From positions 1 to 52,036 of the forward strand of contig QKHT01000304.1 of the NCBI GenBank assembly GCA_003249935.1: a stretch of 52,036 nucleotides of DNA, in the 5' to 3' direction. Every line of letters starts with the position of its first letter. Within the stretch, counting starts at the first letter, position 1. A program made the position numbers and the translations under genes. The DNA comes from Bacteroidota bacterium (GTDB lineage: Bacteria > Bacteroidota > Bacteroidia > Bacteroidales > UBA5342). Under the pieces are notes generated by a model, which was not told where the DNA came from, searched no databases, and was given only the letters and a program-made list of their open reading frames with translations. This document shows positions 34,468-51,379 of this stretch, piece by piece.

Positions 34468-36711
34468 CTATCGTCTGTCGCGTCCGCCACGGTCTCCACC
34501 ACGATCACGTCCGCCACGGTTGTCATCGCGACGTTCAAAACGCGGACGATCCTCGCGGGGCGGACGGCTTTCTTCAACGTGTCCTTCGGGTTTCGGTAAG
34601 AGTGCCTTAGCCGAAAGTTTGAATTTGCCGGTTTTTTCGTCAATAGCGATCAGTTTTACCTCAATGGTATCACCCTCTTTTATCCCTGTTTCTTCCATTG
34701 TTTCGTAACGTTTCCATGCAATTTCCGAAATATGAAGCAAGCCTTCTTTACCCGGAATGATTTCAACAAAACAACCAAAAGGAGCTAATGCTTTTACTTT
34801 AGATGTATATACTTCTCCAACTTCGGGAATTGCCACAATCGCCTTAATGCGACGCAGGGCCGCTTCGATAGCATCTCTGCCCGAAGCCGATACATCCACA
34901 AATCCTTTGCCTTCCTTCTCTTCAATGGTGATTGTCGATTTGGTCGATTCCTGAATTTCCTGAATGATTTTTCCTCCCGGTCCGATTACCGCACCAATCA
35001 TCTCTTTAGGAATAATGATTGTTTCGATACGTGGTGCATTTGGTTTCAATTCGGTATTTGGTTTGTCGATTGTTTCCAATATTTTGCCGAGAATATGCAT
35101 ACGTCCTTGCCTGGCTTGTTCGAGTGCTTTTTCAAGAATTTCGTACGATAATCCATCAACTTTAATGTCCATTTGAGTAGCCGTAATACCCTTTTCGGTA
35201 CCACACACCTTAAAGTCCATATCACCTAAATGGTCTTCGTCGCCCAAAATATCCGAAAGTACAGCCCATTTTGCAGCACCCTTATCGGTTATAAGTCCCA
35301 TGGCAATACCCGATACCGGCCTTTTAATTTGTATCCCTGCATCCATCAAAGCCAATGTTCCTGCGCAAACGGTAGCCATACTCGACGATCCGTTCGATTC
35401 CAGAATATCGCTTACCACGCGTACCGTATACGGAATTGCATCGGGCAACATCCGTTTCAGCGCACGGTGTGCAAGGTTTCCGTGTCCGATTTCGCGGCGG
35501 CTGATGCCTCTTGCAGCTTTTGCTTCGCCGGTTGAGAAAGGTGGGAAATTATAGTGAAGCAGGAATTTTTCCTTCGAACGGTTCAATACATCGTCAACCA
35601 ATTTTTCGTCGAGTTTGGTACCCAATGTAACCGATGTGAGCGATTGGGTTTCACCGCGGGTAAATATGGCTGAACCATGTGCGCCGGGTAAGTAATCAAT
35701 TTCGCTCCATATCGGACGAATTTCGGTGGTTGTACGTCCATCGAGTCTTTTGCCTTCGTCGAGAATCGAACGACGCATGGCTTCTTTCTCTACATCGTGG
35801 TAATAACGGCCAACCAATCCTTTAATTTTTGCATATTCATCGTCGCCGATTTGTGCCTTTTTCTCTTCAGAGTATTCAGCTTCAATGGCTTTGAAAGCAT
35901 CGCCACGTGCATGTTTGTTGGCATTGCACGAGGTGGCCACCACATACGCTTTATCGTAGCATTTAGCCCAGATTTCCTTTTTAAGATCTTCGTCGTTTTC
36001 TTCGTGGCAGTATTCGCGTTTTATTACGCCCAATTCTGCTGCCAGTTCGATTTGAGCCTGACACTGAATTCTAATGGCATCGTGCGCTACACGCAAGCCT
36101 TCGAGCATTTCGGCTTCCGAAACTTCATCCATTTCGCCTTCCACCATCATGATGTTTTCCATTGTGGCAGCCACCATAATGTCGATATCGGCATCTTTAA
36201 GTTCTTCGAATGTGGGGTTTACTTTATATTCGCCACCAATGCGGGCAACCCTTACTTCAGAAATCGGCCCGTTAAATGGAATCGATGATACAGAAATTGC
36301 GGCCGAGGCGGCTAAACCTGCCAGTGCATCGGGCATATCTATCGCATCGCCGGAGATAAGTTGTACCGTTACAAATGTTTCTGCATGAAAGTCGTCGGGG
36401 AAAAGAGGTCTGAGGGCACGGTCGATAAGACGCGATACCAAAATTTCTGAATCCGATGCTCTTCCTTCGCGTTTGGTAAAACCACCCGGGAAGCGACCGA
36501 ATGCAGAGTATTTTTCTTTATATTCTACCGTAAGCGGCATAAAATCGGTGCCCGGAACGGCATCATTTGCTGCTACTACTGTGGCGAGCAACATCGTGTC
36601 GCCCATTCTTACAACTACCGAACCATCGGCTTGTTTGGCTAATTTGCCTGTCTCAATGGTGATTGTTCTTCCATCACCAAGATCAATTTTCTTTATTGTT
36701 GGCGTAATCAT
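34468..36711 (-). CDS. pnp: Polyribonucleotide nucleotidyltransferase (PNPase)
   Basis: From the ATG at 36711 this is a 747-residue enzyme for 3'-to-5' RNA phosphorolysis. It has two RNase PH domains (about 1-145 and 300-530, with [15 protein letters not shown] and [11 protein letters not shown]-like [15 protein letters not shown]), a KH domain ([16 protein letters not shown]) and an S1 domain ([24 protein letters not shown]). The C-terminal tail of about 50 residues is rich in Arg, Gly and Asp, with RGG-like units. The longer frame to 36735 is rejected because a TATCTTTG promoter box (36756-36749) puts +1 near 36742 and the ATG at 36711 matches the family start. The tail probably binds RNA. 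Confidence 0.96.
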
Positions 36712-36748
36712 TTTCTGCCAGTTTTTATATATCACTTTATTATCTCGG

Positions 36749-36756: not shown

Positions 36757-37056
36757 ACAGTTTATCCCATACCAGCATGGTCGTTACCCTTTATATATAA
36801 GGGGTTCATAAAAAAAATAATTATAAATGCAAATGGTAAAATTAATCTACTTATCCTTTTGTCCGATTTTATTCTTAAATGCCTTGGTTTTGATGATGTT
36901 TTAAAATGAAAGTAAAAACGGTTGTAATAATTTAAAAGTAAAGTAAAAGGCTGTGTAAATAATTAAAATGTAATATTATGCCGTGTATTGCGTAAAATAT
37001 ATTAATGATTGGTGTTTGAATTAATCATTTTTATAAGTAAAAACATGTCGAAAAAG
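36757..37056. other. AT-rich intergenic region between pnp and the small-protein unit
   Basis: This stretch is very AT-rich and carries no reading frame with recognisable coding character. It separates divergent promoters: the pnp promoter on the left and the palindrome-bearing promoter of the first small-protein unit on the right. I see no further structured element in it. Confidence 0.6.
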
Positions 37057-37088
37057 TATGTTGTAAAACATAAAAACACGTATCTTTG
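37057..37088 (+). promoter_or_regulatory. Promoter and operator-like palindrome of small-protein unit 1
   Basis: The inverted repeat TATGTT-GTAA-AACATA (37057-37072) overlaps the -33 TTG (37061-37063). An exact -7 TATCTTTG follows at 37081-37088 with 17 bp spacing. The whole block is repeated upstream of unit 2. A bound dimer here would block polymerase (inference). Confidence 0.6.
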
Positions 37089-37123
37089 CAGTGTAATTAA
37101 TAACAATTCTAATTAATTGAATT

Positions 37124-37498
37124 ATGAGAACAATTAAAAGTTTAGCAGTTTTGGCCTTATTGATTGTTTCGGGAGTGAAACTTGAAGCCAGTAGTATTGA
37201 GTCGGCTATTGCAACGCCATCAGTATCTTATGCCGTAGGGTCGGTATATAGTCGCAATTTAGCCATGTTTTACAAAAACGACTATTTTACGGTAAGTTAC
37301 GTAAATAAGAGCGGAGAACCGATGAAGTTTGAAATTCGTGCGGCCGATGGAACACGTGTTTATAAGAACGAAATGATGGAAACCGGAATTTTTCACAATC
37401 GGTTGTTGGTATCGGCATTGCCCGAAGGAAACTATTTTGCCACTATTTACATTGGTGAGAAATCGTACACTACTTCATTTTCTATTGCATTGAAATAA
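37124..37498 (+). CDS. Small exported beta-rich protein, paralogue 1 of 4
   Basis: This 124-residue protein has a signal peptide (MRTIKSLAVLALLIVSGVKLEAS) and a mature domain of about 100 residues with alternating beta-strand pattern. The core motifs shared with the three other paralogues are LAMFYKNDYFTVSYVN, FHNRLLVSALPEGNYFATIYIG and a final Y-x-T-x-F. The LPxGxYxAxI block resembles the last strands of T9SS sorting domains and of DUF3244-type secreted proteins; neither assignment is secure. It is the first gene of unit 1 and its start is well placed about 29 nt after the predicted transcription start. Function is unknown. Confidence 0.8.
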   Translation: MRTIKSLAVLALLIVSGVKLEASSIESAIATPSVSYAVGSVYSRNLAMFYKNDYFTVSYVNKSGEPMKFEIRAADGTRVYKNEMMETGIFHNRLLVSALPEGNYFATIYIGEKSYTTSFSIALK

Positions 37499-37528
37499 TG
37501 AATTAACGCATTAATTTAAGGAGTAATT

Positions 37529-37897
37529 ATGAAACGCATTAACACATTAATCGTTGTTGGGCTGTTTGCTTTTATGGGAGCAAAACCGGAAGCCCGCGAA
37601 GCGAATGCCGGGATGAATGCTTCGGCTTCGACTATTTCGGTTCAAACCAAAAACTCGAGCGATTTGGTTATGTTTGTCAAGGATGGCATTCTTACCGTAA
37701 GTTGCTTGAACAAAGAAGGAAAGTCGTTGACTTTGAGTATTATCGATGAAACGGGAATTCCGTTGTTTTCGAATGTTTCGAAAGAGGCGGGAATATTTCA
37801 TCAACGCTTGTTATTATCGTCGCTGCCCTCGGGTAAGTATTATGCAACTTTAACCACCGGGGGAGAGAAATATGAGTGTGAATTTAAAATTGATTAG
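37529..37897 (+). CDS. Small exported beta-rich protein, paralogue 2 of 4
   Basis: This 122-residue protein has a signal peptide (MKRINTLIVVGLFAFMGAKPEA) and the shared core LVMFVKDGILTVSCLNKEGK with FHQRLLLSSLPSGKYYATLTTG. It is the most diverged of the four, replacing the FTVSY block by LTVSC and adding a Cys. It is preceded by a clear AGGAG ribosome-binding site at 37520-37524, which is rare in this window. It lies 31 nt after paralogue 1 in the same unit and before the terminator at 37985-38005. Function is unknown. Confidence 0.78.
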   Translation: MKRINTLIVVGLFAFMGAKPEAREANAGMNASASTISVQTKNSSDLVMFVKDGILTVSCLNKEGKSLTLSIIDETGIPLFSNVSKEAGIFHQRLLLSSLPSGKYYATLTTGGEKYECEFKID

Positions 37898-38265
37898 TTC
37901 TGCCGAAGTTGTTCGTATTACGAACATCCTTATTTCTCTTACTGTGTAAAAATCCCAATTTTTAATTTATTTGAATTGATGCACCACCAAAATGGTGTTT
38001 TTTTTGCCTTAAACTTTCGTGTTCCTAACAAAATAAATGAAATATACAAATAGCGGTTTTATTTAACTGCGCCATCCGATGTGATATTTACCATTATTTT
38101 ATTTTTAAGTTCTTCGTAGTGTTGTTGTAATACGACTGAAATATGGAAGCTAAAAGTGTATCTAAATAGCAATAAAACAGATATATAGTATCGTGTAGTC
38201 ATAATTTGTATTAAATCAGTCTAAATAATTTAATATTTTTTACACACAAAAATATGCTGCAAAAG
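37898..38265. other. Intergenic region between small-protein units 1 and 2
   Basis: Apart from the terminator at 37985-38005 this AT-rich gap contains no recognisable gene. Its right end carries the duplicate promoter. It marks the junction of the tandem duplication, although no direct-repeat joint is visible by eye. Confidence 0.6.
37985..38005 (+). terminator. Terminator of small-protein unit 1
   Basis: CACCA (37985-37989), AAA loop and TGGTG (37993-37997) followed by eight Ts. The CACCA/TGGTG design and its flanks recur after unit 2 at 39192-39217. Confidence 0.8.
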
Positions 38266-38296
38266 TATGTTGTATAACATATATAGAGTATCTTTG
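38266..38296 (+). promoter_or_regulatory. Promoter and operator-like palindrome of small-protein unit 2
   Basis: TATGTT-GTAT-AACATA (38266-38281) overlaps the TTG at 38270-38272. TATCTTTG follows at 38289-38296 (16 bp spacing). Bases around it match unit 1 almost throughout, through GTGTAATTA downstream. Confidence 0.6.
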
Positions 38297-38331
38297 TAGT
38301 GTAATTATTAACAATTAAACGTTATAAAATT

Positions 38332-38709
38332 ATGAGAACAATTAGATTTTTAGCAGTTTTGGGTTTAGTTTTGGTTTCGGGAGTGAAACTGGATGCCCGC
38401 ACAATTAACACCAGCTTGTTTGTTCCCGATGCATACGCTTCGGTTTCGCATATTGAGATGAATAAAGCAAACAACGATTTGGTTATGTACTTTAAGAACG
38501 ACATTTTCACTGTGAGTTATTTGAATAAGGAAGGTGAAAAAGTTAAGTTCGAAATTCTGTCTGAAGATGGTGAGAAGGTGTTTGTTAGTAAATCGAAGGA
38601 GGTAGGTATTTACCACAATCGGTTGTCGTTATCTACATTGCCTTCAGGAACATACACCGCTATGATTTTGGTTGGCGATAAAGCATATACCACTACATTT
38701 AGTAAGTAA
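38332..38709 (+). CDS. Small exported beta-rich protein, paralogue 3 of 4
   Basis: This 125-residue protein has a signal peptide (MRTIRFLAVLGLVLVSGVKLDA) nearly identical to that of paralogue 1. Its mature core LVMYFKNDIFTVSYLNKEGE, then YHNRLSLSTLPSGTYTAMI, closely matches paralogues 1 and 4. It begins unit 2, again soon after the palindrome-bearing promoter. The likely compartment is the periplasm or outer surface. Function is unknown. The similarity of signal peptide to paralogue 1 and of core to paralogue 4 fits duplication of a two-gene unit, as seen in the flanking DNA. Confidence 0.8.
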   Translation: MRTIRFLAVLGLVLVSGVKLDARTINTSLFVPDAYASVSHIEMNKANNDLVMYFKNDIFTVSYLNKEGEKVKFEILSEDGEKVFVSKSKEVGIYHNRLSLSTLPSGTYTAMILVGDKAYTTTFSK

Positions 38710-38734
38710 TAAAGATAAAATTAATTAATAAAAG

Positions 38735-39115
38735 ATGAAAGCAATTAGGAAATTGGCCGTTTTGGGCCTTATTATGGCATCGGCAGTACAGCTTAATGCC
38801 CGCAATATGAATACGAGTTTGTTTGAACCGGTTGCTGCAATGTCGGTTTCTAATGTTGTTGCTGCGAGTTTTTCGAACGATTTGGTAATGTATTACAAGA
38901 ACGACATTTTTACTGTAAGTTACTTAAATAATACAGGAGAAAAAGTGAAGTTTGTGATACAAACAATGGATGGGGAAAAGATATATCAAAACATTTCAAA
39001 GAAAGGTTCTATATATCATAACCGTTTATTATTGAGTTCGTTGCCTTCGGGTAGTTATTTGGCTATGTTATATGTTGGAGATAAAGAATATGCGACACGA
39101 TTTGTTATCGACTAA
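38735..39115 (+). CDS. Small exported beta-rich protein, paralogue 4 of 4
   Basis: This 126-residue protein has a signal peptide (MKAIRKLAVLGLIMASAVQLNA) and the core LVMYYKNDIFTVSYLN with KVKFVIQTMDGEK and YHNRLLLSSLPSGSYLAMLYVG. It lies 25 nt after paralogue 3. A terminator follows at 39192-39217 with the same CACCA/TGGTG layout as in unit 1. Length and strand pattern are constant across all four paralogues. Function is unknown. Confidence 0.8.
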   Translation: MKAIRKLAVLGLIMASAVQLNARNMNTSLFEPVAAMSVSNVVAASFSNDLVMYYKNDIFTVSYLNNTGEKVKFVIQTMDGEKIYQNISKKGSIYHNRLLLSSLPSGSYLAMLYVGDKEYATRFVID

Positions 39116-39191
39116 TCGTGTGGTTCATATAGCCAACATAGTCTGCCAGTCTTTTACTATTTAAAAAATCCCACCTTTTTACCTTATTGCA

Positions 39192-39217
39192 ACACCATCT
39201 CCATGGTGTTTTTTTTT
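39192..39217 (+). terminator. Terminator of small-protein unit 2
   Basis: ACACCAT (39192-39198), CTCC loop, ATGGTGT (39203-39209) and a run of Ts to 39217. Confidence 0.85.
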
Positions 39218-39319
39218 GTCTTAATTTCTTATATATTCCTATTAAAAATCACGTAATCAATGAGATATAGATATAATGCTATTCTAATATTTTGCGGGAT
39301 AGTGGTACCGTGGATCGAT

Positions 39320-39349: not shown

Positions 39350-41293
39350 ATGTTTGAAAAAAAAGGAAAAACAGCCTTAACCTTTACCGGATTAATTGTT
39401 GCACTTGGTATAATTTACGGCGACATTGGTACATCGCCGCTTTATGTTTTTAAAGCAATAATAGGTTCGGGCCTTGGCATTGACCGAATGCATGTACTTG
39501 GAGCGATTTCGTGTATTATTTGGACCCTGACTTTACAAACCACTATTAAATATGTAGTCATTATTCTTAGAGCCGATAATAAAGGGGAGGGAGGTATTTT
39601 TTCGTTATTTGCCTTATTGAGGAAGAAAAAAGGTTCGTTTTACCTTATCGCTATTTTAGGTGGAAGTACATTATTAGCCGATGGTATTATAACACCTTCG
39701 ATTACGGTACTTTCTGCAACCGAAGGTTTGAGACAAATTAATTCGGAAGTACCGGTCATTTCAATAGCACTTATTATTTTGTCGATTTTGTTTTTTATTC
39801 AACAATTTGGAACTCAGGTTATTGGTAAGTCGTTTGGTCCCATTATGTTTGTTTGGTTTTTTATGTTAGGCATTTTGGGTCTTCTTCAAACCATTACCGC
39901 GCCGGTCGTTTTGGCTGCATTCAATCCTTGGTATGCGGTACAACTCATATCTACGCATCCAAAATCGTTAATGCTGCTGGGGGCCGTATTTTTGTGTACC
40001 ACCGGAGCCGAGGCTCTCTACACCGACTTAGGCCATTGTGGTATTCGAAACATACGCATTAGTTGGATTTTTGTAAAGTCGATGCTGGTATTAACCTATT
40101 TGGGGCAGGGGGCTTGGGTGTTAAATAATATTGAATTGGCAAATAGCGGAATGAACCCGTTTTTTGGCATAATGCCACAATGGTTTTTGGTTTATGGAAT
40201 TGTAATAGCCACTGCGGCGGCAATTATTGCCAGTCAGGCATTGATAAGTGGCTCATTTACATTAATCAGCGAAGCCATTTCGCTTAACTTTTGGCCAAAG
40301 CTTAAAGTAAAATATCCATCATCGGCCAAGGGACAAATGTATATTCCGTTTATAAATCTCACATTATTTTTATCCTGTATTGCGGCTGTGGTTTGGTTTG
40401 GATCGTCGGAGGCCATGGAGGCGGCATATGGTTTGTCGATAACGATAACAATGTTAATGACGACTATTTTGATGGTTAAGTTTATGCAAATCAGAAATGT
40501 TAAAAAAGGATTCATTTATACTTTTGCGGCCGTATACTTTGTTTTGGAAGGTGGTTTTTTATTTGCGAATCTTACAAAATTTTTTCATGGCGGATACTTT
40601 ACGATCATCATTGCATCATTTCTGTCGTTTGTTATGATTATGATGTATCAGGGGCGCAAAGTACGTAACCGGTTCATTACCTTTGAAAAGATACAAAAAT
40701 ATTTGCCGGTATTGTCCGATTTGTCGAAGGATACCGACGTGCCCAAATATGCATCAAATTTGGTATATCTTACACATGCCGATCGCAAAACGGATATTGA
40801 GGCAAAAACGATTTTTTCTTTATTGAACCGAAAGCCAAAGCGTGCCGATGTTTATTGGTTTTTGCATGTGGATATTTTGGATGAACCATTTACAGCAGAG
40901 TATTTGGTGCGCGAATTATCTCCAAATGTTTTTAGAATAGATTTTTATCTTGGGTTTAAGGTTCAGCCAAAAATTGATACTTTTTTCAAGCAGGTTGTAA
41001 AAACAATGGAGTCGGAAAACAAAATTGTTACAATAAGTCCGTTTAAATCGTTGAATAAGTACGATATAGCAACCGATTTCAGATTTGTACATATCGACCG
41101 GCGGGTTTCGCATGGCATTGATTTGCCATTTTTTGAAAAGTTAACGATTAATTTTTATTTTTTATTGCGCAGTATTGGGTGGAGTGATGTGCGGGCTTTT
41201 GGGCTTGATGCCGGCTTGGTTTCGGTTGAAAAAATACCACTTACGATACCCGAACGAAGCAAGATTGTGGTTTTAACCCAAAGACAAAACTAA
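39350..41293 (+). CDS. kup: KUP-family potassium uptake protein
   Basis: This 647-residue inner-membrane transporter has the family signature GDIGTSPLYVFKAI near the N terminus. About twelve transmembrane helices (residues 10-435) follow, including ALYTDLGHCGIRNIRISWIF, and a soluble C-terminal domain of about 200 residues completes it. KUP proteins take up K+, usually with protons. Length is normal for the family. Its stop codon overlaps the stop codon of the convergent DUF721 gene by sharing bases 41290-41293. The leader carries a TACCTTTG -7 box. No other potassium or osmotic-stress genes are adjacent. Confidence 0.95.
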   Translation: MFEKKGKTALTFTGLIVALGIIYGDIGTSPLYVFKAIIGSGLGIDRMHVLGAISCIIWTLTLQTTIKYVVIILRADNKGEGGIFSLFALLRKKKGSFYLIAILGGSTLLADGIITPSITVLSATEGLRQINSEVPVISIALIILSILFFIQQFGTQVIGKSFGPIMFVWFFMLGILGLLQTITAPVVLAAFNPWYAVQLISTHPKSLMLLGAVFLCTTGAEALYTDLGHCGIRNIRISWIFVKSMLVLTYLGQGAWVLNNIELANSGMNPFFGIMPQWFLVYGIVIATAAAIIASQALISGSFTLISEAISLNFWPKLKVKYPSSAKGQMYIPFINLTLFLSCIAAVVWFGSSEAMEAAYGLSITITMLMTTILMVKFMQIRNVKKGFIYTFAAVYFVLEGGFLFANLTKFFHGGYFTIIIASFLSFVMIMMYQGRKVRNRFITFEKIQKYLPVLSDLSKDTDVPKYASNLVYLTHADRKTDIEAKTIFSLLNRKPKRADVYWFLHVDILDEPFTAEYLVRELSPNVFRIDFYLGFKVQPKIDTFFKQVVKTMESENKIVTISPFKSLNKYDIATDFRFVHIDRRVSHGIDLPFFEKLTINFYFLLRSIGWSDVRAFGLDAGLVSVEKIPLTIPERSKIVVLTQRQN

Positions 41294-43041: not shown

Positions 43042-43182
43042 ACCATGAACAATAAAATGAAAGCAGATTTTTGTGTGCCGAAATTCCAATTGGTTTTAAA
43101 CTTGGATTTTTAAAATGATGGTACAATATATAATCTCCTTTCAGGTCTATTGCCATTAAAAGTATTCTTTAGAATTTGTATT

Positions 43183-46100
43183 ATGATGAAAATGACATTC
43201 AAACAATTAAAATCACCAATTCCTTTATGTTGTGTGCTGTTAGCTGGTTTTAACGTTACTGCACAGAATATGAACGTGGATATTAACCTTAATATGAAAC
43301 ACTCGGTGGATGGGGTGTCGGACTTTGGGCGGAATAGACACATGACGATTCATTCTAATTGCACCGAATCGGATTGGAACGGCGAAGAGGCAAAATTGGA
43401 TTATTTAATCAATGATCTTGGTGTTTATTTTGGCAGGGAGACAGGAAATGCCACATGGAAGAATTTAGGCGTAGAAGAGGACCCGAACCATCGCGGTTGG
43501 CCAAACGAAGCTCAGATGATCGAATATTCGAATGGCCTTAAAAAGTGGAGCGAAGGCCCGGAATTTGATTCGCGCGATCAGTACCGGGTAAAGTCTGCCA
43601 ATATGATAATGGGTGTTAATGATTTCAGTCCGATGTATGCAAACCTCTCGTGGTTCGATACGTTTGGCAAAGGAAAAGGTGGATGGTTTGTAAAAGATGT
43701 GGATGCATCGGCGGAATGGACGGCCTTATATCTCGATCATTTTTATGCCAAATCGCCACAGGACATTGGCGAACCACTCCCCAGATATTGGGAGTGTTAT
43801 AACGAACCGGACATGAATTTCATGAATCCGTCCTTTGGAATGATTATATCGAGCCTTGAAAAAAACTGGCAATACCACAAATTAACAGCCCAAGCGGTTC
43901 GTGCTAAATTAGGCGATAAAGCACCAAAAATTGGAGGAATGACTTGGGGACAACACGATTTTTATAAGCCCGATGGTGTGCCGTCGCGTGCGAAATTGTC
44001 TTATTGGACACAATATCTGGCCGCCGATAACCCCATGATTCCGGTGTACGAAAATATGCTTTCGGGTGTTAACGATTGGCCAAAAGCATGGGATCGGCGT
44101 ACAGACAAATGGTGGCAATGGGATTACCTCTGGCAAGGCTTTATTGATTATTGCGGTGCTGATATGGATTTTTACGGTGTGCATATTTACGATTGGCCAA
44201 GTGCGACCAAGGGGCAAGCGACCATTCGTTCGGGCGGACATACCGAAGCCATGTTGGATCAATTAGAGTGGTACGACAATTTCAAATTCGGGAAGAAGAA
44301 AGATATTGTGATTTCAGAATTTGGTGCAGTAGGTACATCATACATCAATTCGTTGCCGGCTCGCCGACGCGACTGGGAATTTTTGAAGCCTTTTAACCAA
44401 ATGTTTATGGAGTTTTTGGAACGTCCGTCGCAAGTGGTAATGAGCATTCCTTTTGCGCCAACAAAGGCCATTTGGGGGGCCTATGTAAAACCCGATGGCA
44501 ACGTACAGCGTTACGATGGTGCCACTCTGTTCGATCCGATTGGGACCTGGCAGGGAAACAAAACCACATCGGTGTTGGGAACACCTTCGGGCGGATGGGA
44601 TTGGAGTGCCATAATCTACTATTTTCAATTGTGGAAAGATGTGGATGGCACTCGTATCGATACCAAATCAAATAATTTGGATGTACAGGCAGATGCTTAT
44701 GTTAAAGACAATCATGTATATGTTATTTTAAACAACTGTGAGGAAGATACTAAAACGGTTAACCTCAACACCTTTAATTCTGCTACTGCCAATGTAGTGC
44801 GTAGAGTAAATATGCGGCATCTGTATTTCGATGCAACATTGGGTACGCAAGGTGAGCCCGCCCTTTCGGTGGTGGATTTAGAAACAGCACCTGCCCAAGT
44901 TACTTTAAAACCAAATTCCACCATTGTTTTGGATTATACCTATGCGAGCAATGTGGTGATAAACAAAGAGTCGAAAGAGAAAAAGTATATGTCTGAACCA
45001 CTTACCACGGCTAAAAATTCGAGGGGAACTCAATTGTGTCGTTTAGAGGGTAAAAGCAGTTTTACTACAACTGTTAAAAATGTGGTTAAACCTCAAAACG
45101 GAGAGGCTATGATACGAATTGGTGGTTTTTTCTACAACCCGGTAGATGGCGGCAATGGGAAAATTAAAGTTGTATCATTAAAAGTAAATGGTAATGAGGT
45201 GGTAACCACCAGCCCAATGTTGGTTAATCCCCGAGGATATGTAGCAGGTGGATATGCCGGTGGATGGTTTGGCGTGTTAGAAATAGAATGTCCGATACAG
45301 TACTTAAAAGACGGAGAAAATACCATTTACTTTCAACGTCAGCAAAGTGCCGATTTTACCACTTGCATGATTCAGGTTTGGGATATGGATGAGGTCCCGG
45401 GTCGTTCAGCGAATACAACGGTTCAACTTACTTCGTTGTCGTTGGGTAGTTCTACCGAGTCGTTAATGTACGGCAATAAATTGGGCATTGAACCCATTTT
45501 TACGCCTTCAAATGCCAGTAATAAAGGGCTTGTCTGGTCGTCGTCGAATACCAGTGTGGCCAAGGTAGATGAAAATGGCGTGGTTACAGCTGTTGCAAGT
45601 TCCGGAAGTGCAATAATTACTGCGACTAGTTTACAAACAGGTTCAATAATTGCTACAAAAACAATAGAAGCGATTCCTTACAGTCGAACTGTAGCCACGG
45701 CATTAAGTATCAATCAAGGTGAGGCAATTACAGTTGATTATTACGTAAATACGCCATTAACCGTAGATATGCTGCCAATTGGTGTAATTGAACAGGATAT
45801 TGAATGGTCCTCGAATAATGAAAAGGTGGTTAGTGTACTTTCTACGGGAAAAGTAATTGGCAAAGTGATAGGCGGTTCGGCCATTATTACAGCTAAAGTA
45901 AAAGGTACAAATATCTCTGATGCCATTACTGTTAATGTTCGCATTGCAGGACCCGAGAGTGTATTTACGCGCGAAATGCCTTCATTTTTGCGACCGTTTC
46001 AACAATTTACAGTGGATGTACCGGTAAGATCCATGGGCGAAAGGCGTGTTGATGTGGAATTGAGTAAAAATGGCACGATATTGGGAAGTGGAACTACCGC

Positions 46101-48111
46101 ATTTTCTTGTTTTGGTGATACTACGATTAAGGTTACTTATACATTGGCCGATGTACCGGCAATTGGTACTGGTTATTTGCTTACAGCTAAATTAAAGCAT
46201 GGTTCAGCCACCATTGCAACTGCGGATAAAGAGTTGGAAATGAAAGATCATATTCGGGTTTTGTCTGTAAAAATTGTCGATGGATTGCCTTCAATTTCAG
46301 TTGGCAGCACGTTAACTCGTAGTGTGGAAGTGCTTCCGTCCAATGCTTTTAACAAAAATATTGTATGGCGTTCGAGTTCGCCTGATATTGCAATGGTAGA
46401 TGCCTCAACAGGCGTAATAACGGGGGTTAGTGCTGGTATGGCCACAATTACTGCTGCATCGGCCGATAACAGTGATATTAAAAGTACCATAGAAATTACC
46501 GTTCAAAATGGGGATGTAACCATACCGGTTACCAACATAAGTTTGCCCGCAAACATGGTGCTATTTCCTGGTGCCTCGCGTACGATCGAACCTGCGTTTG
46601 TGCCTTATTATACCACGCAAAAGGGGTTACAATGGAGTAGCAGTAACCAGAATGTAGCCACTGTTGATGGAAACGGTATTGTTACCGCAAAACAATCGGA
46701 AGGAAGCGTAAACATTACAGCAACATCCACCGCCAATAGCCGGGTTTTGGGTTCAACCATTATTCTTGTATCAAAAACCATAACCATTGAAGCCGAAGAT
46801 TTTGTACAAACAGGTGGTGCTTCTAATGGTGTGGTAAAATCCACAATTGGGTTCAATAATAATACTGCCGGTGATTGGGCCGATTACAGCGTTGATTTTC
46901 CTGTGGGAGGCGACTTTAAAATAACCTACAAAATTGGTTCGCCACAAACATCGGGACTTGGGGTAAAAATGTATGTAGATGGTGCATTAATCTCTACCGC
47001 CACACTCGCCGGTACCGGAAGCTGGGAAACTTATACCGAGCAAGTGGTTTCGGCACTTGTGAATATCACGCAGGGAAAACATACCGTACGAATAGAATCG
47101 ACCGGTACGCAGGAATGGCAATGGAATTGTGATAAAATTATGCTCACCTTTCAAGGGTCAACGCTTCCTGTGAGTGTCGACGGAGTGGCCATAGTGCCGG
47201 GAAGTGTCTCTGTAGGGTTGAACGGAACAACCCAACTCACCGCCAATGTTTCGCCATTAAATGCTTCGAATAAGAATGTGGTGTGGCACTCTTCTGATGA
47301 TGGTATTGCTACCGTTAATACCAGTGGATTGGTGTCGGGTATTAAAATTGGTACTGTTGAAATTAGTGTTACAACTTCTGATGGAAGCTTTAAGTCAAAA
47401 TGTACGGTTACCGTAACCGATAAACCCATCGTAACCAACACTCTGAAAGTTGAGGCTGAGTCATATGTTTCAACTGGAGGCATGCTTACAAATGCTGGTG
47501 GCAATGGCAAACAAGGGTTTCAGAAAACCGCTACCGGAATTAACTGGAATCAGGCTGGTGATTGGGCGGACTATACTGTGGATTTTGTTCAGACTGGTGA
47601 CTATTCTGTCTCTTATTTTATAGGCTCACCGTCAACAACCGGCATAGGCGTTAAGTTGTATGTCGATGGCGTGTTGAAACTTACAACTGCACTTTCAGGT
47701 ACCGGTAATTGGGAGGTTTATTCGGAACAATTTGCTCAAGGACTTGTGTCGGTAATGCAAGGCATTCATACCGTTAGAATTGAATCTTTTGGTGCCACAG
47801 AATGGCAATGGAATTGCGATTGGTTTAAGCTGAACCTCCAACCTAATGGTTTTTCATTGGCCAAATTGCCAAGTGTAAATGTATATCCCTCACCTGCCAC
47901 CGATTTTGTTACGGTAGAAGGTGATGGTATTGAATCGGTAATAATGTTCAACGCAATGGGGCATAAGGTAATATCCTCCCAAGCAAACATCAATCAACCC
48001 ATTAAACTGTCGTTAACCGAATTAGCAAATGGGATGTACATTCTGCTTGTTCGTACGCGGGATGCACAAACGGTTGAAAAAAAGATAATTGTAAATCATT
48101 GCAGGCCATAA
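43183..48111 (+). CDS. Secreted GH86-like agarase/porphyranase with BIG2, CBM6 and T9SS sorting domain
   Basis: From the ATG at 43183 this is a 1642-residue multidomain protein with a signal peptide ending near LLAGFNVTAQ. The catalytic module (about 30-600) has acid/base candidate E208 in YNEPDMN and nucleophile candidate E379 in VISEFGAV, as in clan-A family GH86 (beta-agarase, beta-porphyranase). A beta-sandwich (600-745) follows. Next are BIG2 Ig-like domains (about 746-825, 846-920, 1023-1106, 1113-1196), CBM6 (1198-1322), another BIG2 (1326-1412), CBM6 (1419-1552) and the T9SS domain (1560-1642, VYPSPATDFV). It should cut red-algal galactans outside the cell. The family call rests on motif reading. 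No SusC/SusD or sulfatase gene is near. The ORF to 43150 is rejected. Confidence 0.8.
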   Translation: MMKMTFKQLKSPIPLCCVLLAGFNVTAQNMNVDINLNMKHSVDGVSDFGRNRHMTIHSNCTESDWNGEEAKLDYLINDLGVYFGRETGNATWKNLGVEEDPNHRGWPNEAQMIEYSNGLKKWSEGPEFDSRDQYRVKSANMIMGVNDFSPMYANLSWFDTFGKGKGGWFVKDVDASAEWTALYLDHFYAKSPQDIGEPLPRYWECYNEPDMNFMNPSFGMIISSLEKNWQYHKLTAQAVRAKLGDKAPKIGGMTWGQHDFYKPDGVPSRAKLSYWTQYLAADNPMIPVYENMLSGVNDWPKAWDRRTDKWWQWDYLWQGFIDYCGADMDFYGVHIYDWPSATKGQATIRSGGHTEAMLDQLEWYDNFKFGKKKDIVISEFGAVGTSYINSLPARRRDWEFLKPFNQMFMEFLERPSQVVMSIPFAPTKAIWGAYVKPDGNVQRYDGATLFDPIGTWQGNKTTSVLGTPSGGWDWSAIIYYFQLWKDVDGTRIDTKSNNLDVQADAYVKDNHVYVILNNCEEDTKTVNLNTFNSATANVVRRVNMRHLYFDATLGTQGEPALSVVDLETAPAQVTLKPNSTIVLDYTYASNVVINKESKEKKYMSEPLTTAKNSRGTQLCRLEGKSSFTTTVKNVVKPQNGEAMIRIGGFFYNPVDGGNGKIKVVSLKVNGNEVVTTSPMLVNPRGYVAGGYAGGWFGVLEIECPIQYLKDGENTIYFQRQQSADFTTCMIQVWDMDEVPGRSANTTVQLTSLSLGSSTESLMYGNKLGIEPIFTPSNASNKGLVWSSSNTSVAKVDENGVVTAVASSGSAIITATSLQTGSIIATKTIEAIPYSRTVATALSINQGEAITVDYYVNTPLTVDMLPIGVIEQDIEWSSNNEKVVSVLSTGKVIGKVIGGSAIITAKVKGTNISDAITVNVRIAGPESVFTREMPSFLRPFQQFTVDVPVRSMGERRVDVELSKNGTILGSGTTAFSCFGDTTIKVTYTLADVPAIGTGYLLTAKLKHGSATIATADKELEMKDHIRVLSVKIVDGLPSISVGSTLTRSVEVLPSNAFNKNIVWRSSSPDIAMVDASTGVITGVSAGMATITAASADNSDIKSTIEITVQNGDVTIPVTNISLPANMVLFPGASRTIEPAFVPYYTTQKGLQWSSSNQNVATVDGNGIVTAKQSEGSVNITATSTANSRVLGSTIILVSKTITIEAEDFVQTGGASNGVVKSTIGFNNNTAGDWADYSVDFPVGGDFKITYKIGSPQTSGLGVKMYVDGALISTATLAGTGSWETYTEQVVSALVNITQGKHTVRIESTGTQEWQWNCDKIMLTFQGSTLPVSVDGVAIVPGSVSVGLNGTTQLTANVSPLNASNKNVVWHSSDDGIATVNTSGLVSGIKIGTVEISVTTSDGSFKSKCTVTVTDKPIVTNTLKVEAESYVSTGGMLTNAGGNGKQGFQKTATGINWNQAGDWADYTVDFVQTGDYSVSYFIGSPSTTGIGVKLYVDGVLKLTTALSGTGNWEVYSEQFAQGLVSVMQGIHTVRIESFGATEWQWNCDWFKLNLQPNGFSLAKLPSVNVYPSPATDFVTVEGDGIESVIMFNAMGHKVISSQANINQPIKLSLTELANGMYILLVRTRDAQTVEKKIIVNHCRP

Positions 48112-48268: not shown

Positions 48269-51200
48269 ATGAAAACTATTAAATCTTTTCGAACATTTCT
48301 ATTAGCCATTTTCATGGCACTACTAAGTGTTGGTGCTTCGGCCCAAATGGCACTTTCTCTTAAAGCGGGCACCAATTACAACGGCAATTTTACTGCGGGC
48401 ACAGCCATGCAAATCTCCACCGACTTTAATGCCGGTCCGGGTGATGTGATTAATTCATCAGGCGTGTTTTATTCGTTAAAACTGATTAATACGACCGATT
48501 GGGTTACCATTACCCGCCAAATTGATGCTTACGATGCAGCCTCAGCCGGTTTGGCCAGCGGGTCGTCTGCGGTAACCATTAATTTGCCCGCCGATCTTAC
48601 GCCTTCGGCAAGTCTTGTAGCACCGTATAAATACTTTCTTTTTGTCACGTTTACCACTGAAAGCGGTGCAAATGCCAATGCCATCAATTGTTATGCATTT
48701 CCGGTTATTCTGGCGGCACCTGCTATTACCGTTACCAATGTCACCAATAATGCCATTGCTTTTGGAAATGTAAATGTGGGTGGAACCAGTCAACAAACTT
48801 TTAATGTAAGTGGCGTAGGGCTAACCGGTAATGTCTCATTAGCCAAAACCTTGTCGCAATATACGGTATCGCCAACGACACTTACCCCTACCAATGGTAC
48901 TCTGGCATCGACACAGGTTACGGTAACTTTTGCACCTACTGCCGAACAACTCTATAGTGATGCAATTTCGTTCACTGGAGGTGGTATCACCCCCTCTTCG
49001 GTAAGTCTTTCGGGAACCGGCATTCCGGCTGCTACCTATACCGTTACGTTTAATAAGGGAACCGGTACATGCTCCACCGCATCGCTCACCGAAAGTGTGG
49101 GCAACGCAGGCGTAGTGCTTCCAACAGCAACTGCTCCATCGGTGCCCTCGGGTTGGACTTTTGCCGGTTGGACAAGTGCCAATGTTTCGGAAACCACTTC
49201 GGCCCCTACAATTTACACTGCAGGAAGTACATATCATCCAGTGGCAAATGTTACCCTGTATGCGGTATATACCAAAACAACAAGCAGTGGATCGGGCTCG
49301 GCCACCGTTACCGTAGATTGTACGTCGGCATATGCTCCGGGCAATACAAGTAGTACGCTTGGTGCCGCATATGTACAGGGAGGAATCACTTTTAAGGCAA
49401 ATAACATTGCTTTAGGCAACATGGGCAGCGGATACAATCCTGCATTCAGACTCAATAAACTTACCACAACCTGCCGCTTTTGGAATACGCAGGCTTTTGC
49501 AGGAACCATCACTTCCATTGCTATTAAAGCCACCATTGCCCCACGGTTATATGTTGGAGATGCCACGTTGGTGGGTTCAACCGATAGTCAGGCATCGAGT
49601 GCCGCCATTACCGGTTTTGCCACACCATTAACGAACCCAACACCGGTTAGTAGCGTGTATACTTACGATGTAACCGGCGTTTCGGGAACAAAAACACATT
49701 TTGCTCTGGTAGGCGGAACCAGTAATAACTTGACGGATGTTAAGTCGATTGTAATCACATACAGTGCTGTGGTAAATGTAGTTACCTACAATTCAAATCC
49801 ATCGCTGCCATTAACAACATGGAATGGTACTTCGTGGAGTACACCACCCACCACCGATTATGATGCCAAAATAAGTGGCAATTTTAGTGATGTGGGTTTT
49901 AGTTGTCATCATTTAACGATTGACGCTGGTAAAAACGTGACCATCACTTCGGGCACACTTACTGTTTCCGGAAATCTTACTCTGAAAAGCGATCATACAG
50001 GTACTGCATCGTTGGTAAACAATGGCGCACTAACATTAAGTGGCATTGCCTACATTGAACGATATATGACCAAAGGCGGAGCAAATGGCACCGGTTGGCA
50101 TCTGGTTGCTCCACCTGTAAGCGGAAATGGGATAAATACCTTTATTACATTAAACAGCAACATTTCGGATAATGGTGCGGGTGGTTATGGGATTTTCGAT
50201 TATAACAACAGCGGAGGCGTAAGCGGCATTGGCGCATGGAATAGTCCGTTTACCGCTGCAACCTGGGGCGACCTTACACTTGCCAAGGGCTATTCGGTTC
50301 GGTTGAAGAGTTCGGGAGTTGATGGTGCGGTTACCTTTATGGGAACTCCTGTTACCGGCAATCAAACGGTTACCGTAACCGATGCCGGAGCAAACTGGAA
50401 TTGCATCGGAAACCCTTTCACTTCGGCTATTGCCATAAATAGTGCTGCCGGTTCAACCAACTTTATAAGTGCAAACAGTGCAAATCTGGATGATACCTAT
50501 CCTGGTATTTACCTGTGGGATGAAACCATGAGTAATACCGCTTATACTCCGGTTGTAAGCAACTCTCCTGCAACTTATGCGCAAGTGGCTCAAGCCTATT
50601 TTGTGAAGGTGAAAGACGGTGTTACCTCGCTTTCAATGCCTGCAGCCATGCAACAGCATCAACCAACCGCTGCATTCAAATCGGCCAAATTAATTTCGCC
50701 TTGGTACTCAATGAATGTGTCTGTTGCTTTAGATAGTAAGTTGGGAACCACGCAATTGGCTTTCAATGAAGGCATGACAACGGGTGCCGATCAGGGAGCC
50801 GAGGCCGGATTGTTTAGCTCTGATCCCGATTTTGCGATATATTCTAAACTGGTATCGGGCGATGTTGGCGTAAAATATTCGGTGCAGGCACTGCCTACCT
50901 CGGGTTATAATACCACCATTGTGCCCATTGGCCTCGAAAGTGCCAATGCAGGATCGGTTACTTTCTCTGCAAAATCATTAAATCTGCCAAGTGGCATGAT
51001 GCCTGTATTTGCCGATCTCGAACTCTATACGTTTACCGATTTTAGTATCGAAAATGCATCGTACACCACAACCATCGATGCAAACACGTCGGGTTCAGGT
51101 CGTTTTGCCATTCTTACTTCACCCGATGTTATTACGCGATTAAAAGCACAAAAGGCGAGTGCCTTTACCGTGTTTGCATCCGAAAAACAGTTGAAAATAG

Positions 51201-51379
51201 TTGGCAATATCGTTCCCGGTTCGGTGGTTACCGTTTTCGATATGGCAGGCCGCAAAGCACTTACAGCCAAAATTTCAAACGACCATTCGAATATTATCGA
51301 TGGTGGTTCACTCACAAAAGGCCTCTATTTTGTAAAGGTTGAAGGGTTTGAACCGGTATATAAAGTGATTGTGAAATAA
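48269..51379 (+). CDS. Large T9SS-secreted protein with Ig-like and InlB-type repeats
   Basis: This 1036-residue protein has a signal peptide (TFLLAIFMALLSVGASAQ) and a first beta domain (about 25-150). An ASPM/choice-of-anchor-like domain (155-250, AFGNVNVGGTSQQTFNVSG) follows, then one InlB/Listeria-Bacteroides repeat (254-335, YTVTFNKGTG and WTFAGWTS). A long beta-rich region of repeats common in Bacteroidota surface proteins (ERYMTKGG, GWHLVAPPVSG, WNCIGNPFTSAI) precedes a T9SS sorting domain (964-1036, GLYFVKVEGFEPVYKVIV). No enzyme motif is evident, so adhesion or surface structure is likely. The gene is followed by a frameshifted small peptide gene. A weak TACTTTTT box lies at 48236. 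Confidence 0.85.
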   Translation: MKTIKSFRTFLLAIFMALLSVGASAQMALSLKAGTNYNGNFTAGTAMQISTDFNAGPGDVINSSGVFYSLKLINTTDWVTITRQIDAYDAASAGLASGSSAVTINLPADLTPSASLVAPYKYFLFVTFTTESGANANAINCYAFPVILAAPAITVTNVTNNAIAFGNVNVGGTSQQTFNVSGVGLTGNVSLAKTLSQYTVSPTTLTPTNGTLASTQVTVTFAPTAEQLYSDAISFTGGGITPSSVSLSGTGIPAATYTVTFNKGTGTCSTASLTESVGNAGVVLPTATAPSVPSGWTFAGWTSANVSETTSAPTIYTAGSTYHPVANVTLYAVYTKTTSSGSGSATVTVDCTSAYAPGNTSSTLGAAYVQGGITFKANNIALGNMGSGYNPAFRLNKLTTTCRFWNTQAFAGTITSIAIKATIAPRLYVGDATLVGSTDSQASSAAITGFATPLTNPTPVSSVYTYDVTGVSGTKTHFALVGGTSNNLTDVKSIVITYSAVVNVVTYNSNPSLPLTTWNGTSWSTPPTTDYDAKISGNFSDVGFSCHHLTIDAGKNVTITSGTLTVSGNLTLKSDHTGTASLVNNGALTLSGIAYIERYMTKGGANGTGWHLVAPPVSGNGINTFITLNSNISDNGAGGYGIFDYNNSGGVSGIGAWNSPFTAATWGDLTLAKGYSVRLKSSGVDGAVTFMGTPVTGNQTVTVTDAGANWNCIGNPFTSAIAINSAAGSTNFISANSANLDDTYPGIYLWDETMSNTAYTPVVSNSPATYAQVAQAYFVKVKDGVTSLSMPAAMQQHQPTAAFKSAKLISPWYSMNVSVALDSKLGTTQLAFNEGMTTGADQGAEAGLFSSDPDFAIYSKLVSGDVGVKYSVQALPTSGYNTTIVPIGLESANAGSVTFSAKSLNLPSGMMPVFADLELYTFTDFSIENASYTTTIDANTSGSGRFAILTSPDVITRLKAQKASAFTVFASEKQLKIVGNIVPGSVVTVFDMAGRKALTAKISNDHSNIIDGGSLTKGLYFVKVEGFEPVYKVIVK

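Follow-up and report, generated by a model that had tools for sequence, protein, structure and literature searches.

The 52,036-nt stretch of Bacteroidota DNA analyzed here (the window) carries four successive ORFs of 122-126 aa each on its plus strand, between genes that we take, by their sequences, to be pnp (34468-36735, minus strand) and kup (39350-41293). This locus raises the question of what these small exported proteins are, and of how they came to be encoded in two look-alike pairs. Our answer, in which we place slightly better than even confidence, is that a promoter–operator, two genes and a terminator are present in two copies, and that the products are exported Ig-like proteins of the DUF3244/T9SS-tail superfamily that probably serve as non-enzymatic extracytoplasmic binding modules.

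The two units and their palindrome

The first-pass annotation had proposed that promoter, operator-like palindrome, both genes and a CACCA/TGGTG terminator are each present twice, and all of them were located in both units (Table 1). Each unit is ~1.05 kb long (36960-38019 and 38169-39229). In each, a promoter of the Bacteroidota type, its -33 element overlapped by a 16-bp palindrome, is followed by two exported-protein genes, spaced by 30 nt (unit 1) or 25 nt (unit 2), and by a terminator. The broader description of two complete transcription units that encode exported, beta-rich proteins and have retained their regulation is thus supported.

Table 1. Coordinates of the genes and putative signals of the two units within the window
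Feature	Position	Strand	Description
Palindrome, unit 1	37057..37072	+	TATGTT-N4-AACATA; overlaps the -33 element
Predicted promoter, unit 1	37061..37088	+	TTG 37061-37063, TATCTTTG 37081-37088; 20 nt start to start
Gene 1	37124..37498	+	124 aa; signal peptide, linker and one Ig-like domain (by homology)
Gene 2	37529..37897	+	122 aa; the copy diverging most; Cys59 and Cys117, without counterpart in the other three
Terminator, unit 1	37981..38005	+	CACCA/TGGTG stem and T run
Palindrome, unit 2	38266..38281	+	TATGTTGTAWAACATA; same palindrome type as unit 1
Predicted promoter, unit 2	38270..38296	+	TTG 38270-38272, TATCTTTG 38289-38296; 19 nt start to start
Gene 3	38332..38709	+	125 aa; layout as gene 1 (signal peptide, linker, Ig-like domain)
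Gene 4	38735..39115	+	126 aa; layout as gene 1 (signal peptide, linker, Ig-like domain)
Terminator, unit 2	39191..39217	+	CACCA/TGGTG hairpin and T run

The promoter consensus of Bacteroidota is TTG / TAnnTTTG, and the -33 TTG of each unit is itself part of the palindrome TATGTTGTAWAACATA. A sigma-70 scan found 3 sites in the sequence versus 13 in shuffles. The terminator hairpin of unit 2 (39191-39210) has a folding energy of -8.5 kcal/mol (z -3.5 vs shuffles), and that of unit 1 (37981-37998) is weak (-6.9 kcal/mol, z -0.9). An Rfam match to GcvB at the 3′ end of unit 1 was below threshold (18.5 of 42 bits, E 0.41) and was taken as chance.

The pattern TATGTTNTANAACATA has six exact sites in the 4.27-Mb genome (0 in the reversed control, 0.07 expected from the window's dinucleotides): two in the window, three before genes that are presumably recJ-like, for a LacI-type regulator and for a SusC-like receptor (these names, like galM-, araD- and MarR-like below, are assigned from sequence), and one without a close ORF. 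We judge it improbable that a single conserved regulator controls this protein family throughout the order with the palindrome as its operator. Such a regulator would account for the sites at both window units, for the only exact site in genome G074, which lies ~88 nt upstream of its stand-alone homologue, for that in G334, which precedes one of the two homologues there by ~280 nt, and for a one-mismatch site at -71 of a homologue in G268, from the genus of G074. However, 26 homologues inspected over 450 nt gave two exact sites and one with a single mismatch, all in family f73, to which the window's genome does not belong, and 23 without; the one exact site of G268 lies away from both homologue loci fetched; and the pattern occurs in 126 of the 393 genomes of the order (the window's own included) before varied genes, which at the 30 loci fetched with a site include galM-like, araD-like and MarR-like ones. 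One regulon for the palindrome is unsupported beyond family f73.

Three further stretches may be recorded here. On contig C166 of the same genome, L024 (347-470) carries a palindrome of the same type with TAGGTTTG 21 nt after the TTG and, by eye, a hairpin-plus-T-like stretch with no ORF close behind; it is possibly a small RNA or an orphan leader. On contig C134, a stretch with repeating translations (L023, 55-373) lies upstream of a SusC-like gene. Upstream of the stand-alone homologues L037 and L051 of G334 lie TGGCAC-like / TGGCA-like elements that look by eye like sigma-54 promoters, and a presumably NtrC-like ORF lies ahead of the L037 gene.

Age and origin of the copies

Over ungapped columns the two blocks are 69% identical, and the repeats between them are offset by ~1210 nt. 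In 60-column windows, identity reaches 83-85% at the promoter (palindrome and -7 element) and 81-82% at the terminator, versus 55-78% in the genes. The upstream repeats (37021-37072 vs 38230-38281 in the promoter region, 79%; 37080-37198 vs 38288-38406, 80%) cover promoter, leader and signal peptide, and a third repeat (37975-38005 vs 39186-39216, 77%) covers the terminator. The score is 99 for the upstream pair and 50 for the one at the 3′ end, where 500 dinucleotide shuffles gave at most 47 and 28, respectively; the gene–gene spacers of the two units (score 14, shuffle mean 13.2) show no excess over shuffles.

The four genes are old paralogues that have diverged under purifying selection: because dS among them is saturated (1.3-3.1) with dN at 0.32-0.59 (dN/dS <1), we take the copies to be both old and constrained. 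Retention of whole regulatory units had been read as a sign of dosage or diversification; since the four proteins are only 37-61% identical in pairs, plain dosage is not favored.

The proposed tandem duplication of the whole unit holds in that both units are complete; as to whether the pair was duplicated jointly, four-sequence AU tests kept all three topologies, both for nucleotides (p 0.286 for (12)(34), 0.788 for (13)(24) and 0.120 for (14)(23)) and for protein (0.505, 0.549 and 0.388, respectively), so that the independent pairings (1,2),(3,4), which the first-pass annotation had named as grounds for refutation, are neither established nor rejected. We favor a joint duplication of the two-gene pair, short of proof, as suggested by two features: the promoter and terminator ends are both alike in register and spacing, for which one duplication is the simpler account, and the nucleotide likelihood weakly prefers ((1,3),(2,4)), the best unrooted four-sequence tree (RELL share 0.73). 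The units may instead have arisen separately, old single-gene paralogues each having gained a tandem partner and the promoter/signal-peptide and terminator segments having been copied later. We consider this unlikely but far from negligible, given that the (1,2),(3,4) topology is not rejected, that no two of the proteins are closer than 3 and 4 (61%), and that codon identity between genes 1 and 3 falls sharply past the signal peptide: where the two share a residue, the codon is the same at 15 of 16 positions within the signal peptide and at 23 of 48 in the remainder (p 0.001 by Fisher's test). For the signal peptides of the other five gene pairs the corresponding count is 33 of 50 (p 0.05 against 15/16). 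The likeness from promoter to signal peptide may be due in part to later conversion or constraint.

Fold and relatives of the four proteins

By eye, all four proteins have a basic start and then a hydrophobic stretch ending in LEA, PEA, LDA or LNA; no cysteine is found near the signal peptide in any of them, implying that there is no lipobox. Ahead of the domain there is nothing but this signal peptide and a linker spanning ~24 alignment columns. The first-pass annotation called the signal peptides near-identical, which fits genes 1 and 3 (16 of 22 residues in common) but not the other five pairs (8 to 13 of 22). Of its core motifs, only LPxGxY is common to the four; protein 2 departs from FTVSY and HNRL (LTVSC, HQRL), which the other three have, and YKND is limited to 1 and 4 (FKND in 3, VKDG in 2). 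Protein 2 is alone in having two cysteines, both of which fall in predicted strands, where a disulfide would be possible.

Structure prediction had been proposed for all four proteins and was carried out for 4 and 2, with AlphaFold2 models built from the four sequences themselves. In both models the first 40 residues have low confidence and a single domain follows, an Ig-like sandwich whose core has a pLDDT of about 90. The sandwich matches that of solved DUF3244 members: the top three PDB entries for both models are all titled DUF3244, namely 3d33 (Z 11.5, rmsd 2.3 over 87 residues for protein 4; Z 10.7, 2.8 over 87 for protein 2), 3sd2 (11.1, 1.9 over 78; 10.7, 1.9 over 78) and 4g5a (9.3, 2.5 over 78; 9.1, 2.7 over 79). 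For T9SS tails (8glk, 8qb1, 8gl6, 8gl8 and 5ag8), Z is 8.2-8.5 against protein 4 and 7.4-8.2 against protein 2, and many other Ig-like domains, e.g. from GH2 enzymes, score like them; 3d33 and 3sd2 thus stand 2 to 3 Z above the best tail, whereas 4g5a, within 1 Z, is a tie. Based on these two models and on the domain tree described below, each mature protein consists of a linker with low model confidence, probably flexible, and a single Ig-like beta-sandwich of seven strands that belongs to the DUF3244 / T9SS-tail superfamily.

No further copies were found in the genome itself at E<=0.01: it has only these four. At E<=1e-3, a profile of the four matched 12 of the 60 genomes in a first set and 100 of 393 in the order (its own genome counted in both), with no match in two genomes of the same family; a widened profile at E<=3e-5 matched 263 of 393, largely in long frames among the matches listed. 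Many profile matches are T9SS tails on long proteins, and others are stand-alone secreted proteins of ~200 aa with two domains or of 110-140 aa with one. We examined 26 of the stand-alone homologues, 15 with two domains (L006, L025, L027, L034, L036, L041, L046, L056, L059, L194-L196, L204-L206) and 11 with one, leaving out L052, L054, L055, L058, L060 and L207-L211 as tail-like, open-ended or unmatched. Because none of the 26 has a second homologue beside it (among ATG-started ORFs of at least 70 aa in flanks of up to ~1.5 kb, shorter at contig ends), tandem pairs look particular to this window within the homologues sampled. In a comparison of synteny, 3 of 20 relatives yielded kup and 13 of 16 yielded pnp, with an rpsO-like gene upstream in 9 of the 13 pnp loci and little upstream sequence or no ORF in 2, and no homologue of up to 260 aa was found at the kup and pnp loci of relatives. 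Scans of named genomes, led by protein 1 and then by protein 4, each gave 91 pattern stretches, none of them confirmed, from a search that may have excluded very close records.

A phylogeny with homologues, another step that had been proposed, placed the four together. In a domain tree of 57 rows, built on few columns and taking in 12 of 41 tails, they form one clade (support 99/92) inside a group (96/82) that holds 13 of 15 second domains and two single-domain rows; the first domains fall elsewhere, as do the tails and a separate family with a single domain. In this tree the four thus lie nearest to the second domains of secreted two-domain proteins from the same order. We reject an origin by the splitting of one such protein into two genes, since all four group with second domains.

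Two other sets of sequences came to light alongside these. L053, L057 and L197-L203 make up the separate exported single-domain family (110-140 aa, clade 100/99), which spans several families of the order and lies near T9SS tails in the tree, but on a long branch. The window itself also encodes a 1653-aa secreted glycosidase-like protein (43150-48111), in which segments recur and positions 47881-48096 encode a T9SS tail, and a further T9SS tail at 51197-51376.

Family models place the four less sharply. They miss the DUF3244 (PF11589) gathering score of 25 bits (19.3 for protein 2 and 13.8 for protein 3; no match at E<=1 for 1 and 4) and the cut-offs for T9SS tails, Por_Secre_tail (PF18962, 18.3-24.8 of 27 bits) and TIGR04183 (17.9-21.5 of 23 bits). 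Sub-threshold as they are, Por_Secre_tail is the best Pfam match of each, ahead of DUF3244, and TIGR04183 the sole NCBIfam match; a search of the PDB by sequence gave a best E of 0.084. The DUF3244 and T9SS-tail models overlap, since of the 14 two-domain relatives scanned (L036 was outside the scan) 8 pass the DUF3244 cut-off (4/6 and 4/8 in two batches) and 5 that of Por_Secre_tail. Two T9SS tails of the own genome, C175 (32.3 bits) and C61 (25.8), also exceed the DUF3244 cut-off. Profiles built from tails and from second domains score 45.1 vs 41.1 with protein 1 and 45.7 vs 41.5 with protein 4, the reverse holding for 2 and 3, and profile comparison hardly separates the two groups (E 2.6e-18 against 1e-17; maximum probability 3.7% in 30 column-shuffled controls).

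Possible roles and comparison with known systems

Most likely, small extracytoplasmic Ig-fold binding modules have multiplied in this lineage. The four copies stem from old duplication in this lineage and have diverged under purifying selection. Their promoter would be of the housekeeping type, with a dimeric regulator gating expression by way of the palindrome that overlaps the -33 element. The proteins probably work outside the cytoplasm, where they would bind rather than catalyze and where each copy would have come to differ in partner or ligand. We infer the binding role from the fold, from export and from the lack of any enzyme-family match, and it leans on the fold because no function is known for DUF3244. 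To call this an unknown system, as the first-pass annotation did, is too strong: fold and family neighbors are known, although the neighbors' function is still lacking. BT genes labelled DUF3244 do appear in iron-response lists in the accessible part of one report (PMC10434189).

A different possibility is that the four are cargo-less T9SS C-terminal domains that are exported to the periplasm, where the T9SS would treat them as cargo, decoy or regulator, much like PorA in Porphyromonas gingivalis. The genome has SprA and at least 145 TIGR04183 matches over the cut-off (of 150 listed; 150 of 169 candidates were scored), a scan in which protein 4 reaches 22.0 of 23 bits, and both the sub-threshold family matches and the structural matches to tails given above speak for it. 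We nevertheless regard this as doubtful: 3d33 and 3sd2 score well above the best tail, the tree places the four beside second domains rather than tails, none has a YPNP-type entry by eye, and proteins 1, 3 and 4 appear by eye to be without the mid-strand lysine that cargo tails carry in their last strand according to the accessible part of PMC11285876. (The last residue itself is of little use, only 12 of 41 T9SS tails in our sample ending in lysine.) A bolder version, kept alive by the same SprA and tail complement, has the four as free-standing tail mimics acting in trans, delivered to the periplasm under control of the palindrome and competing with the tail-bearing proteins or tuning their handling, each for its own subset; we hold this to be very improbable. 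Fold and tree favor the DUF3244 side. To our knowledge Bacteroides thetaiotaomicron lacks a T9SS, and the occurrence of DUF3244 proteins there speaks for the same side. Our literature search on T9SS together with DUF3244 found no T9SS paper mentioning DUF3244 or PF11589.

The tandem arrangement is real, and the four proteins make up a new sub-branch next to a family that is known but whose function is unexplained. Duplication alone is an ordinary kind of event; the locus matters because it touches on three subjects that are usually separate: the functionally uncharacterized DUF3244 proteins, the sorting tails of the T9SS, and small orphan proteins that are exported. With four copies in a small space and two-domain relatives elsewhere, it offers a tractable setting in which to ask what such Ig-like modules bind.

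Among known systems, PorA resembles the four in being small and exported, in its CTD-like domain and in its narrow distribution, but, as described in the part of the literature available to us, it has 246 aa and an extra FimH-like N-terminal domain, of which the 122-126-aa window proteins have no equivalent. T9SS type A sorting domains (RgpB CTD 5ag8, mirolase CTD 8qb1, NucA CTD 8glk) share the general Ig-like sandwich and, by eye, both the strand with LPxGxY and a glycine close to where strand 4 begins; unlike them, the four are not C-terminal to a larger cargo, have no YPNP by eye and score below the cut-offs. The two-domain ~200-aa secreted proteins of the same order have the domain in common with the window proteins, which group with their second domain, yet they carry both domains in one chain, with no adjacent second homologue in the flanks. 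The best fold match is to DUF3244 (3d33 BVU_0276, 3sd2 BT_3571, 4g5a BT_1867), with which the four share a ~100-residue Ig-like sandwich; they differ from those structures in their low identity in structural alignments (10-17%), in missing the family cut-off, and in being encoded here by a duplicated two-gene unit.
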